From positions 186,001-250,000 of the forward strand of contig CACNQE010000001.1 of assembly GCA_902622515.1 (NCBI GenBank): a stretch of DNA of 64,000 nt, written 5' to 3'. Of this stretch, positions 56,808 to 61,760 are shown piece after piece. Position 1 is the stretch's first letter. Each line of letters opens with the position of its first letter. The translations under genes were made by a program, and so were the position numbers. Source of the stretch: an uncultured SAR116 cluster alpha proteobacterium (GTDB lineage: Bacteria; Pseudomonadota; Alphaproteobacteria; Puniceispirillales; Puniceispirillaceae). The notes beneath the pieces were generated by a model. That model saw nothing but the letters and a program-made list of their open reading frames with translations. It had not been told where the DNA came from and made no database searches.

Positions 56808-59114
56808 TCACCTCTTTTTTATACTTTTCCATATTTTAGTTGATGTCACAGGCATATCAATATGCGCCAATGATAATGCGTCACAAATAGCTGATATTAT
56901 CGCTGGCGGTGCTCCAATGGTGCCCGCCTCTCCAACTCCCTTTACCCCAAGAAAATTATTCTTACATTTGGTATTTTTCAAGTAGTGAGTGATCATCGTA
57001 AAATGATCTGCACGAGGCAGAGTATAATCCATTAAAGACCCCGATAAGCACTGACCTGTTTTATCATATACCAAGTTTTCATATAAAGCTTGACCTACCC
57101 CTTGAGCAATGCCTCCATGTATTTGACCCAATAGTGTATCGGGATTGATAACTTCACCCACATCATCAGTAACAGTATATTTTTTAATCACAGTAACTAG
57201 CGTTTCTTTATCAATTTCCGCCTCTACAACATGGCACCCATAAGGAAAACTAGGTCCCTGGGTTGTATAAAAATGTTTTAGATTGAATGGATGAACCTTG
57301 CCATCATTGAAAAGAATTTTAGAGAGATACTCTATCGAAATAGTTTTATTTGTATTGACACGCCTAAATATTCCATCCTCAAATTCAATCTCATTTAAAT
57401 CACATTCAAGGAACTCAGCTGCAAAAGGCTCAGCTTTTTTTAATATTGTTTCCGCTGCCTCTGCTGTTGCAGAACCTTGAATTACAGTCATTCTCGCACC
57501 TCCTGTATTTCCAGATGGAGAAATTCGGGAGTCACCTTGAATAACTCTAATTTTTCCTGCGTCGTATCCTAATCTATCTGAAAAAATTTGTGTAAGCGTT
57601 GTTTGATGACCTTGCCCATTTTCCATTTGTGCTGCATATATAATCACATCTCCATCTTTGTTGAAACGAATATCAACTCCCCCATCTTTTCCATTTCCGC
57701 AAGACTCCAGATAAAGTGCGATCCCCAGTCCTCTAAAAAAACCATTCTTAAGGCTATTTTTATATCTTTCTCTAAATCCTTCTACATCAGCATTTCTAAG
57801 TGCATCATCAAATAATGCTGGCATATTTCCTGAATCGATAGTACCACTGCAAACAGTTTTATAGGGTATTTGCTCTGGTTGAATTAAATTCGCTTTTCTA
57901 ACCTCAACTCTGTCAATTTCAAGATCAAAAGCAATCTTATCCATCAAGCGTTCCATAATATAATTTGCTTCTGGGCGCCCTGCACCTCTGTAGGCATCTA
58001 TTGCAGGAGTATTTGTTACAACTCCAATAACTTCTAGGCTAACATTCTGAATATCATACAGTGTCGTCAATGTACGACTAGTAGATTTGGTTGGCACATA
58101 AACACCAAAATTAGATAGCCAACTCCCAAGATTTGCTTGATTTTTAAATTGAATGGCTTTGATTTTTCCGCTTTTTGTCACTAAAGCTTTTGCATAGCTT
58201 TTTATGTCACGACCTTGCAAGTCACTTATAAAGCCTTCTGTGCGATCTTGCTGCCATCGGACTGCTCTGTTAAGTTTTTTAACTGCCCAACAAACACATA
58301 ACTGTTCTGGATGCAAAAAAATCTTGTATCCAAAGCCTCCTCCAACATTACCTGAACGCAAATGAACTTTTCTACTATCTAAATTCAAAGCTTCCGCTAT
58401 TTGTTTTGAAAGGCTAACTGTTCCTTGTGTTCCACACCAAATTAATAGTTCATCTGTTTCATCTGATTCTGGATGTGGCATTGCCATTATCTGTCGCATT
58501 TCCATTGCATTTGGAGCAATCCTGTTATTAAAAACAGATAATTCAACTATTCTATCTGTTTTTAAATCTGCTGTATTGAACTCGTGCAAGGCTTTTTCAT
58601 GATTACCAACTCTCCAATGAAAAACTTTGTTGCCTGGATAATCAGGGTAAAGTTGTGGCGCATCCGCCTCTAAAGCACTATCCACATCAGTTATTGCAAG
58701 CAACGGTTCGTAATTTACCTCTATCAATTCAGCTGCGTTGAGTGCTTGTTCTTTCGTAGTTGCCACAACCATTGCAATAATATCACCTACAGATCTTACT
58801 ATACCTCGTGCCATTGGCGACCTTGTAGTCGGCACGACATCGCTGCCATCTGCGTTTTTTACCCAATCAAGACATTTAATATCACCAACCCTTTCATGGT
58901 CTAATTCAAATTGGGTAGCGATGAGATGCACCCCTGGCAGTTTTGATGCTGTTTCAAAATCAATTGACCTCACAATTGCATGGGCGTGTGCTGAGCGAAG
59001 GAAATGCGCTGATAATCCTTCACCGACATCAATATCATCCGTAAATTTTCCTGTGCCGGTAATAAGTACCTTATCCTCAACTCGTTTAACCGCTTGTCCA
59101 ATTCCAAATTTCAA
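56808..59114 (-). CDS. Molybdenum hydroxylase large subunit (form II CoxL-like)
   Basis: 768 residues of the xanthine oxidase family, normal length for a large subunit. Molybdopterin-binding motifs include GGGFGYKIFLHPEQL, the AYRGAGRPEANYIMERL loop and the active-site glutamate in GVKGVGEAGTIGAPPAI. The AYRGAGR loop marks form II, whereas the true CO dehydrogenase has AYRCSFR. The small iron-sulfur and FAD subunits are not beside it. The substrate is unknown. Confidence 0.87.
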   Translation of the reverse strand: MKFGIGQAVKRVEDKVLITGTGKFTDDIDVGEGLSAHFLRSAHAHAIVRSIDFETASKLPGVHLIATQFELDHERVGDIKCLDWVKNADGSDVVPTTRSPMARGIVRSVGDIIAMVVATTKEQALNAAELIEVNYEPLLAITDVDSALEADAPQLYPDYPGNKVFHWRVGNHEKALHEFNTADLKTDRIVELSVFNNRIAPNAMEMRQIMAMPHPESDETDELLIWCGTQGTVSLSKQIAEALNLDSRKVHLRSGNVGGGFGYKIFLHPEQLCVCWAVKKLNRAVRWQQDRTEGFISDLQGRDIKSYAKALVTKSGKIKAIQFKNQANLGSWLSNFGVYVPTKSTSRTLTTLYDIQNVSLEVIGVVTNTPAIDAYRGAGRPEANYIMERLMDKIAFDLEIDRVEVRKANLIQPEQIPYKTVCSGTIDSGNMPALFDDALRNADVEGFRERYKNSLKNGFFRGLGIALYLESCGNGKDGGVDIRFNKDGDVIIYAAQMENGQGHQTTLTQIFSDRLGYDAGKIRVIQGDSRISPSGNTGGARMTVIQGSATAEAAETILKKAEPFAAEFLECDLNEIEFEDGIFRRVNTNKTISIEYLSKILFNDGKVHPFNLKHFYTTQGPSFPYGCHVVEAEIDKETLVTVIKKYTVTDDVGEVINPDTLLGQIHGGIAQGVGQALYENLVYDKTGQCLSGSLMDYTLPRADHFTMITHYLKNTKCKNNFLGVKGVGEAGTIGAPPAIISAICDALSLAHIDMPVTSTKIWKSIKKR

Positions 59115-59180: not shown

Positions 59181-59792
59181 TCAATTTAATGAAAAATCTC
59201 GCCAACCAGAATAAATTCTAAATATTGCGGTACACCAGCATAAACAACCAAAGACAATTCCAATAGAGGAAAATAGAGATGGGAACAATAATATTAAACC
59301 AATAAAAAAAATTGTTTCACTACCCTCTATTAGCCCACTTAAATAATAGAAGCTTTTCTCACCAGTTGGTTTCTTGTTTTTTTTTGAAATTTTTTCCTGT
59401 AAAATTCCATAAGCAAGAAAACTTGTTCCAGTTCCAACAAAACTAAAAATTATAAAACAAGCGACAAAACTATTTTTATCATTGAAGACAGCAAACGCAA
59501 AAGGAATTGAGCTATAGATTATGAAATCAAAAACGATGTCCAAGAACGCTCCACGATGAGTAGGTGTTTTTACTCTAGCAATAGCTCCATCTAAACCGTC
59601 TAATATACGATTTAAACTAAAAAATAAAAGCGCAAGTAAAAAATGTCCATATCCAACAAGGAAAGCGGCTACAATTCCAGTTATAAATCCCAATATGCTC
59701 ACAGCGTCAGCAGAAACGCCAATTTTTACAGCATAAGTAGCAATTTTAGATAGTAATGGCCTTGCAAACGGTGAAATTGTTTTATCAAACAT
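59181..59792 (-). CDS. CDP-alcohol phosphatidyltransferase
   Basis: An integral membrane enzyme of about 203 residues that makes a phospholipid from CDP-diacylglycerol. The family motif D-G-x2-A-R-x8-G-x3-D-x3-D is LDGAIARVKTPTHRGAFLDI followed by VFD. I choose the ATG at 59792 (MFDKTISPFARPLLSK); a TTG at 59813 is also possible. Its neighbour is the decarboxylase-like gene, which suggests phosphatidylserine chemistry, but its alcohol substrate cannot be told. Confidence 0.83.
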   Translation of the reverse strand: MFDKTISPFARPLLSKIATYAVKIGVSADAVSILGFITGIVAAFLVGYGHFLLALLFFSLNRILDGLDGAIARVKTPTHRGAFLDIVFDFIIYSSIPFAFAVFNDKNSFVACFIIFSFVGTGTSFLAYGILQEKISKKNKKPTGEKSFYYLSGLIEGSETIFFIGLILLFPSLFSSIGIVFGCLCWCTAIFRIYSGWRDFSLN

Positions 59793-59819
59793 TTTTATAT
59801 GACCAATACCCAATCATAA

Positions 59820-60476
59820 TTACTTTGCTAGTAGTGTTTTGCCGGCAATGCAGAATTCACCTAAAGTTACCGTTAACTCATAATCAGCTGGTAACAAAAT
59901 GTCTAATTCACCATATAGCAATGAGATAGCAATTGGCATTCCTGCTTTAACTATTCTTCCCTCTGATATGGGACTTGACAAATAACGCGCTAATGGACCA
60001 CCCCATGCAATAATACATATCTCATTTTGAATATTCGAAGAGAACGAATTGATGTCTTGATTGATCGTTATTTCTCTTCTTGCATTCAAGCTATTTGCAT
60101 TAGAAATCTCAAAAGGCAGAAACAAGCCATCAACGAACATATTTATATCAATTTTACCATTACATGGCATAAGAATAAGCCTATTGGTGTGAATTTTCTG
60201 AGAAATTCTTATTCTTTTTTTACCAGAATTAGTGTCTACAAGTGTAACCAATCCGTCCATAGGTGCTAAAATTTCTCCAGTCTCAATCTCCATAATATTG
60301 GTGTTTGGATGTTTCGTGACATAGACAAGCCAAAGCAACCCTAAAAGACCAATCAACCCCAGCGGAAGCCATATAAACCCAAATAATATTACAGTCATTC
60401 CAGTAATAATTCGAACAGGCATACTTGGTGATTGTGAGTCTAATGACTCTTTAAAGTATTCAGTTAGCGTATTCAT
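59820..60476 (-). CDS. Phosphatidylserine decarboxylase-like protein lacking the pyruvoyl serine
   Basis: 218 residues, the normal length of the short bacterial form. An N-terminal hydrophobic segment is followed by APMDGLVTLVD (like SPADG) and KIHTNRLILMPCNG (like VHxNRxPxxG). Where the family has RFGS, cleaved to make the pyruvoyl cofactor, this protein reads ISLLYGELDILLPADY, so the serine is Glu. It also lacks the usual ARR. I expect it cannot mature to an active decarboxylase. It precedes the CDP-alcohol transferase. Confidence 0.78.
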   Translation of the reverse strand: MNTLTEYFKESLDSQSPSMPVRIITGMTVILFGFIWLPLGLIGLLGLLWLVYVTKHPNTNIMEIETGEILAPMDGLVTLVDTNSGKKRIRISQKIHTNRLILMPCNGKIDINMFVDGLFLPFEISNANSLNARREITINQDINSFSSNIQNEICIIAWGGPLARYLSSPISEGRIVKAGMPIAISLLYGELDILLPADYELTVTLGEFCIAGKTLLAK

Positions 60477-60521: not shown

Positions 60522-61760
60522 TTAATCTGGTATAGCAAATATTTGATTAGGATAAATTAGGTCTGGGTTATTTATACGATTATTATTTCGTTTAAATATG
60601 TCGACATAGCGAACACCCTGTCCATAGGCTTTATAAGCAATACGCCATAAGGCATCTCCCTTGTGAATAACCAACATGTCACTCCCGTCACTGCCAATTT
60701 CAAGCGACTCAGCACTTATTTCAATCTGAGTTACTTGCATAACTGATTCATCTTCATCTAGCAATTCAGCGCGTAGATTATATGCTTTGTCAGGTTGCAT
60801 TGACGCCCTTGTAACCATACTCCATCGATTTACTTTATTGTCTTTCTTAGAAACATTCCACTTGATTGAAGCAATAAATTGATTATCAAAATATGCGCGC
60901 ATAGAATTTCCTCCCCTAGCAAACCCCGACAATCTTAATTTTGATTTATCCTCCCAAGATAAACTTCTAATTTGAATAAATTCGTTTTCATTAGACAAAC
61001 TGGAAATTTTATCTGCTTTATCAAGCACTGACGCTACAGAACGCAACCTTCCTATATCTGACTCATCTTCGGAGGTTATGGTCTCCTTCTTATCAACGTT
61101 AACCTCTGGTGATTGCACGACTACCGGTATCGATGAATCTGATTTTGGAACAAATACCACAAACGGTTTTTCTTCCTTATTTTCTTCGATATCAATAACC
61201 ACAGCTAAATCTGAAATCATTGTATCTAATATTTTGGAGGAATCACCCATATTTGTGGTTTCTGGTGTCAATGGCAGATTCTCAGTATTATCTGCCTCCG
61301 TCAAACCCCTTTCGGCTTTTTCAGATACCACTCTTAGTGACAGCCTTTCAGTTTCACTTTCGCCATGTTCGGGCTTAATTCCTAGTTGAATGAAATGGGA
61401 ACCTGACTCAAATTGTTTTTCTGGAATAGCAACCCAATCACCATTTTTATTGATGGTAGTTTCAGCAATAATTATATCACCATTAAACAAAACTACGGTT
61501 TTACCTGGTGGCCCAATACCACCAAATACACTGGAGCCGTCAGGGCTTACTTGCGCCATGGTAACTTGCAATCCAACCTTCAACTCATCTATGGTGTTTA
61601 GCTTTTCTTCAACTCTCTCAATTTCACCAATATTTTCACCCGCTTCCTCTTGGTCAATTTTTTTGCCAGTTTCTGCAGTTTCGTTTAGTTTGATTACAAA
61701 AAATGCTGCAACAATACCTGCAACCAACAAACCTATTAATCCAATTTTTAAATTTTTCAT
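60522..61760 (-). CDS. Membrane-anchored LysM protein
   Basis: 412 residues: one N-terminal helix (LKIGLIGLLVAGIVAAFFVI), a Glu/Ser-rich middle region with Ig-like segments (QVTMAQVSPDGSSVFGGIG, VVLFNGDIIIAETTINKNGD), and a C-terminal LysM domain (VIHKGDALWRIAYKAYG ... RINNPDLIYPNQIFAIP). LysM binds peptidoglycan, so this is a cell-wall-associated protein of unknown role. It is divergent from the LOG gene. Confidence 0.85.
   Translation of the reverse strand: MKNLKIGLIGLLVAGIVAAFFVIKLNETAETGKKIDQEEAGENIGEIERVEEKLNTIDELKVGLQVTMAQVSPDGSSVFGGIGPPGKTVVLFNGDIIIAETTINKNGDWVAIPEKQFESGSHFIQLGIKPEHGESETERLSLRVVSEKAERGLTEADNTENLPLTPETTNMGDSSKILDTMISDLAVVIDIEENKEEKPFVVFVPKSDSSIPVVVQSPEVNVDKKETITSEDESDIGRLRSVASVLDKADKISSLSNENEFIQIRSLSWEDKSKLRLSGFARGGNSMRAYFDNQFIASIKWNVSKKDNKVNRWSMVTRASMQPDKAYNLRAELLDEDESVMQVTQIEISAESLEIGSDGSDMLVIHKGDALWRIAYKAYGQGVRYVDIFKRNNNRINNPDLIYPNQIFAIPD

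Follow-up and report, generated by a model that had tools for sequence, protein, structure and literature searches.

The window, by which we mean the whole 64,000-nucleotide stretch of SAR116 DNA that was analysed, carries on its minus strand a gene (B) for a homologue of phosphatidylserine decarboxylase (Psd) that lacks the pyruvoyl serine of the family and lies beside a gene for a CDP-alcohol phosphotransferase (CDP2). This raises the question of what such a protein is and why it is kept. The features discussed below, in window coordinates, are as follows.

59181..59792, minus strand: CDP2, CDP-alcohol phosphotransferase (Pfam PF01066, 42.4 bits; intact motif)
59820..60476, minus strand: B, serine-less Psd paralogue, 218 aa, with two hydrophobic helices and a Psd-like beta domain
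59907..59915, minus strand: codons Y188-G189-E190 of B, cleavage-site region, with G189 in the canonical Ser column (E. coli Ser254)
60180..60191, minus strand: codons H96-T97-N98-R99 of B, with R99, and not H96, in the column of the conserved Psd His
60522..61760, minus strand: LysM-domain protein (Pfam PF01476, 25.3 bits), first gene in the LysM-B-CDP2 run, 45 bp before B

Family membership and active-site residues

B is an intact open reading frame in a genome of 2.11 Mb that is 95% complete, and its relatives with 94-95% identity to the window protein include named SAR116 genomes. It is homologous to Psd, scoring 25.4 bits against Pfam PF02666 (PS_Dcarbxylase; cut-off 22 bits), a family matched by 26 of the 26 aligned B members (E<=0.01), and the NCBIfam psd models align its residues 27-217 (full length or most of the length). 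Two hydrophobic helices at residues 19-35 and 37-53 precede the beta domain, and a structure model (pLDDT 90.8) consists of these two N-terminal helices and the beta domain. The best PDB matches of this model in Foldseek are PsiD (8zia, E 3.2e-4) and E. coli PSD (6l06, E 6.7e-3), and it aligns with structures of the Psd family at a TM-score of about 0.44-0.48 by query length, a modest value consistent with the Psd fold. In family f1, to which serine-less B is confined as far as tested, the window protein is matched in 57 of 61 genomes, most of which have two matching places, B and a better-matching Psd (A).

Active-site residues were compared in an alignment of 30 B orthologues, 48 canonical Psd proteins (A) and, from genus g1 (that of the window), seven divergent copies of A. 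Maturation of E. coli PSD uses D90/D142, H144 and S254, and decarboxylation needs H144 (PMC7952604). The residues of the E. coli enzyme were aligned through a PDB search with the B profile, as a usable E. coli alignment was not obtained from a PDB search with the canonical Psd profile. When anchored on the D..P that follows, canonical RFG[S]RVD stands without gaps opposite LLY[G]ELD of B, so that the Ser is replaced by Gly189 and the Gly before it by Tyr188, with Glu190 falling one position on. The earlier note had read RFGS as LYGE, and although the absence of serine holds good, the substitution of Glu for Ser would require a one-residue gap and is rejected. It had also asked whether relatives share the Glu; B proteins of the window's genus always have Gly in the Ser column, and the residue after it is E or D.

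Neither register (Gly189 or Glu190) places a Ser, Thr or Cys at the cleavage site of the window protein, and G-S occurs there in none of 30 distinct B homologues, among them the named SAR116 records L035, L036 and L039 and the single-contig genome G015. Thus neither of the observations that the earlier note had named as telling against it, a shifted alignment with a serine after glycine or close relatives with GS, was made. Two B proteins of genus g6 (L055:1489-2151 and L068:1417-2076) do have a Ser in this column, but after Cys or Gln and not after Gly. That an error of assembly or frame produced the serine-less state, or that the alignment conceals a displaced G-S, has practically no chance of being correct and can be taken as already refuted, because the same state is found in independent assemblies from several genera, no G-S lies near the cleavage site of window B, whose loop has no Ser (the nearest, S185, follows Ile four residues before the site), and no point in favour was found.

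The second claim of the earlier note, that the Asp and His of the self-processing triad are kept, is correct for the Asp and mistaken for the His. The Asp of AP-x-D-G (E. coli Asp90) is retained as D74 (APMD74G), and its column holds D in 28 and E in two of the 30 homologues. At the other site, anchored on Pro104, canonical V[H]VNRAP and E. coli DY[H144]RVHMP stand ungapped opposite TN[R99]LILMP of B, so that Arg99 occupies the position of His144 and Leu102 that of His147; across B homologues the catalytic-His column varies (Q/K/R/H/L). His96 is rejected as the triad His, since it lies three residues upstream of the true column, at a position that varies among H, Q and F in the genus. Because B has no Ser, Thr or Cys at the cleavage site and no catalytic His, we expect from the established chemistry of the family that it neither self-cleaves nor forms a pyruvoyl group, and judging from its residues it is almost certainly non-catalytic as a phosphatidylserine decarboxylase.

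This state sets B apart from its paralogues. Asp, His and Ser are intact in 48 of 48 canonical A proteins, which is every A examined outside genus g1, and the best 26 matches of the B profile outside the family all have RFGS.

Gene order at the locus and the origin of B

The earlier note had placed B next to a gene for a CDP-alcohol phosphatidyltransferase, and this is borne out by an open reading frame at 59181-59813 on the same strand, which is open from a TTG at 59813 and has its best start at the ATG at 59792 (MFD...). Its product, CDP2, carries an intact D-x2-DG-x2-AR-x7-G-x3-D-x3-D and hence has the motif of CDP-alcohol phosphotransferases; the motif is kept in 14 homologues, one of which has C replacing the R of AR. 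No NCBIfam equivalog is matched by CDP2 at its cut-off. Its best matches are enzymes of the archaetidylinositol-phosphate/CDP-inositol type (AF2299, 4o6m; NF040950), with which it shares the phosphotransferase motif, but it scores only 62 bits against the archaetidylinositol phosphate synthase model, whose cut-off is 180, and inositol-1-phosphate synthase (PF01658) is found in none of 61 genomes of the order, which makes an inositol lipid an unlikely product. CDP2, recognizable by a C-terminal motif YLGGLTEG-ET, occurs once per genome in 54 out of 61 genomes for the order and 68 out of 289 for the class, often in the gene order LysM-psd-pssA-CDP2.

Within family f1 the order LysM-B-CDP2 is found at 19 of 19 loci, a count that includes two at which B or CDP2, masked by an antisense ORF, was recovered. 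Four outside alphaproteobacterial families have (IDH/LOG)-LysM-psd-pssA-CDP2 (L191-L194), and the sister SAR116 families f2, f3 and f4 have LysM-CDP2 with nothing between them (12 loci, L211-L222). In f1 and f4 the working psd-pssA pair occupies another conserved locus, and in the loci read B is never beside A. In most f1 members CDP2 and msrB are separated by a xanthine-dehydrogenase-like molybdopterin subunit, at 56808-59114 in the window, which is absent from that interval in f2-f4.

Because the outside families have psd between LysM and pssA-CDP2, B sits in the ancestral psd slot, and we infer that it is the old slot copy of psd, lost in f2-f4. Later insertion of B into a LysM-CDP2 slot is possible, although less simple. 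In a tree of these proteins all 22 B rows fall in one clade (support 100/100), with long branches that leave the deeper placement uncertain. The likely course of events is that B derives from the psd of an ancestral LysM-psd-pssA-CDP2 slot, as in other alphaproteobacteria, that a working psd-pssA pair came to be fixed elsewhere in the genome, and that the slot copy then lost catalysis while retaining its membrane anchor and beta domain.

B resembles the short-form Psd proteins (RFGS type; NCBIfam PRK05305 group, PF02666) in length, in its two hydrophobic helices and beta domain, in AP-x-D-G and a C-terminal AG-x-T motif, and in its ancestral genomic slot. It differs from them in lacking the cleavage-site Ser and the catalytic His, in not keeping 57 of the 71 columns that are invariant in A, and in scoring 64.3 bits against the best NCBIfam psd equivalog, for which the cut-off is 315 bits.

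Selection on B and its possible roles

The view that B is not a broken gene is upheld by reading frames that are intact in all relatives, with no broken copy among 30 homologues from about ten genera, and by dN/dS values between the window gene and its three closest relatives of 0.10-0.14, CDP2 giving 0.09-0.16. Across genera the identity of B to the window protein is 23-33%, and the 14 A-invariant columns that it keeps are mostly Gly or Pro plus D74, R133, R164 and T214. All 30 B homologues share eight residues (P72, G75, P104, G117, R164, P196, A211 and T214) and also G159, which is Ala in A. These patterns indicate that the fold is retained and the active site is not, and that B is, so far as alignments can tell, a conserved pseudoenzyme under purifying selection rather than a one-off mutation. 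The open-access literature searched yielded no description of a serine-less Psd or of a Psd pseudoenzyme, and a non-catalytic Psd selected family-wide offers a clean example of an enzyme repurposed at its ancestral genomic position.

As to what B does, we favour a membrane-anchored pseudoenzyme, derived from the Psd of the ancestral slot, that probably serves CDP2 as an accessory, and give this reading about an even chance. B would now be a membrane-bound, phospholipid-facing accessory of CDP2, acting as a scaffold, a stabiliser or a subunit that holds substrate or product. The earlier note had likewise suggested a non-catalytic partner of the phosphatidyltransferase. The gene order in f1, from which this role is drawn, agrees with the suggestion, but the sister families keep LysM and CDP2 without B, as many other alphaproteobacteria keep CDP2, so that CDP2 is not generally dependent on B. 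Genes in an ancient conserved block may also stay in order without being functionally coupled. B could thus be an adaptor peculiar to its family, or serve a role unrelated to CDP2, and its fast evolution fits weak constraint as well.

In the strongest rival, B is a slowly decaying relic, functionless and kept by chance or by an operon that must not be disrupted. Its low conservation and long branches, and the emptying of the same slot in f2-f4, would suit a relic; the complete lack of broken copies over so many genera, a dN/dS of about 0.1 and the eight invariant residues would not, and we regard it as unlikely. It is somewhat harder still to accept that B is a new enzyme that acts on a phospholipid head group without a pyruvoyl, before or after CDP2. 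Such an enzyme might be expected from the fixed neighbourhood of B and from a conserved set of its own that is unlike that of Psd (G159, R133 and R164), but there is no conserved candidate catalytic cluster; D74, R133 and R164 apart, conservation falls on Gly, Pro, Ala and Thr, which are typical of fold maintenance, and the position of the canonical His is variable.

The second Psd homologue and the route to phosphatidylethanolamine

Most members of f1 have a canonical A, with Asp, His and Ser intact, adjoining pssA and away from the B locus. The situation in the window's genus is different. The earlier note had proposed a search for a true psd gene elsewhere in the genome, and none was found; the only other Psd homologue found there, A1 (G000:C2:185020-185664, minus strand; L001:1486-2133), is also dead, having APLNG at the Asp motif, Ala in the His column and FGG at the cleavage site. 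All three residues are lost in seven of the seven genus members where A1 was found, and in one further member, G042 (95% complete), it was not found.

A1 and B are both serine-less Psd homologues of similar length, and the reading frame of A1 is likewise conserved in the genus. However, A1 represents a separate loss, descended from canonical A (Asp to Asn/Ser, His to Ala and Ser to Gly with FGG), its pssA neighbour is gone, and its dead form is seen only in this genus; in the tree the A1 copies form a separate clade with a very long stem on the A side. The structure model of A1 has a pLDDT of 80.9 and gave no confident match in Foldseek. Its dN/dS values are inconsistent, 0.10 for G000 against G082 and 0.82 for G046 against G081 (L074 against L075), a hint that selection on A1 is relaxed in some members of the genus.

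The gene pssA is present in 70 of 101 genomes of the order and absent in six of the six members of the window's genus tested. It is also absent in G097 (g19) and in the genomes listed for g12 (family f2) and g10 (family f3), and the latter two genera have no Psd match either; it seems that the SAR116 order has lost the phosphatidylserine route to phosphatidylethanolamine (PE) on more than one occasion. Because A1 is inactivated and pssA is missing, the window's genus probably lacks the usual route from phosphatidylserine to PE, as read from its gene content: its active Psd paralogue would have been inactivated and pssA lost, leaving no PE from phosphatidylserine. The suggestion in the earlier note that the membranes of this cell may be made without PE of this origin therefore gains support, although not for the reason it gave, as B is serine-less family-wide, mostly in genomes with an active Psd, and its serine loss is not the cause.

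Several replacements for PE were considered. The two PF01066 genes of the window's genome are CDP2 and a pgsA-like gene that neighbours a uvrC-like one, and phosphatidylcholine synthase is rejected on that account; an OlsB-type PF13444 gene for ornithine lipid is absent from the four genus members tested, and BtaA (PF11899) for betaine lipid is not found above cut-off in 61 genomes of the order. SAR116 has been reported to carry PlcP, the phospholipase of lipid remodelling (PMC4796936). A further proposal, that the dead Psd is a lipid-presenting subunit of CDP2, that the pair supplies a non-PE head group and that the genus, with its two proteins derived from Psd, thus lives without PE, strikes us as improbable in this full form. 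The genus is in any case a natural experiment, ocean bacteria with pssA gone and both Psd copies dead, and if PE is truly absent the psd annotation of the B and A1 genes and models of SAR116 lipid remodelling need correction.

These genomes also bear on whether B is a dead subunit that heterodimerises with the true Psd and activates it. There is a precedent in trypanosome AdoMetDC, a pyruvoyl decarboxylase activated by a catalytically dead prozyme (PMC5201418), which like B is a dead paralogue of a self-cleaving pyruvoyl-dependent decarboxylase, and active A and B occur together in most genomes of f1. The AdoMetDC prozyme, however, is not a Psd homologue and activates a living partner, whereas the window's genome offers B no active paralogous partner. 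B occurs in each of the ten g1 genomes searched, all of which have either an inactivated A or none that was found, and it also occurs in G097, for which neither A nor pssA is found. It never adjoins A in the loci read, and the slot of B is empty in sister families whose A is active. We consider this the most doubtful of the roles proposed for B, and as two genera keep B while having no active Psd, it is unlikely to be an activator of A.
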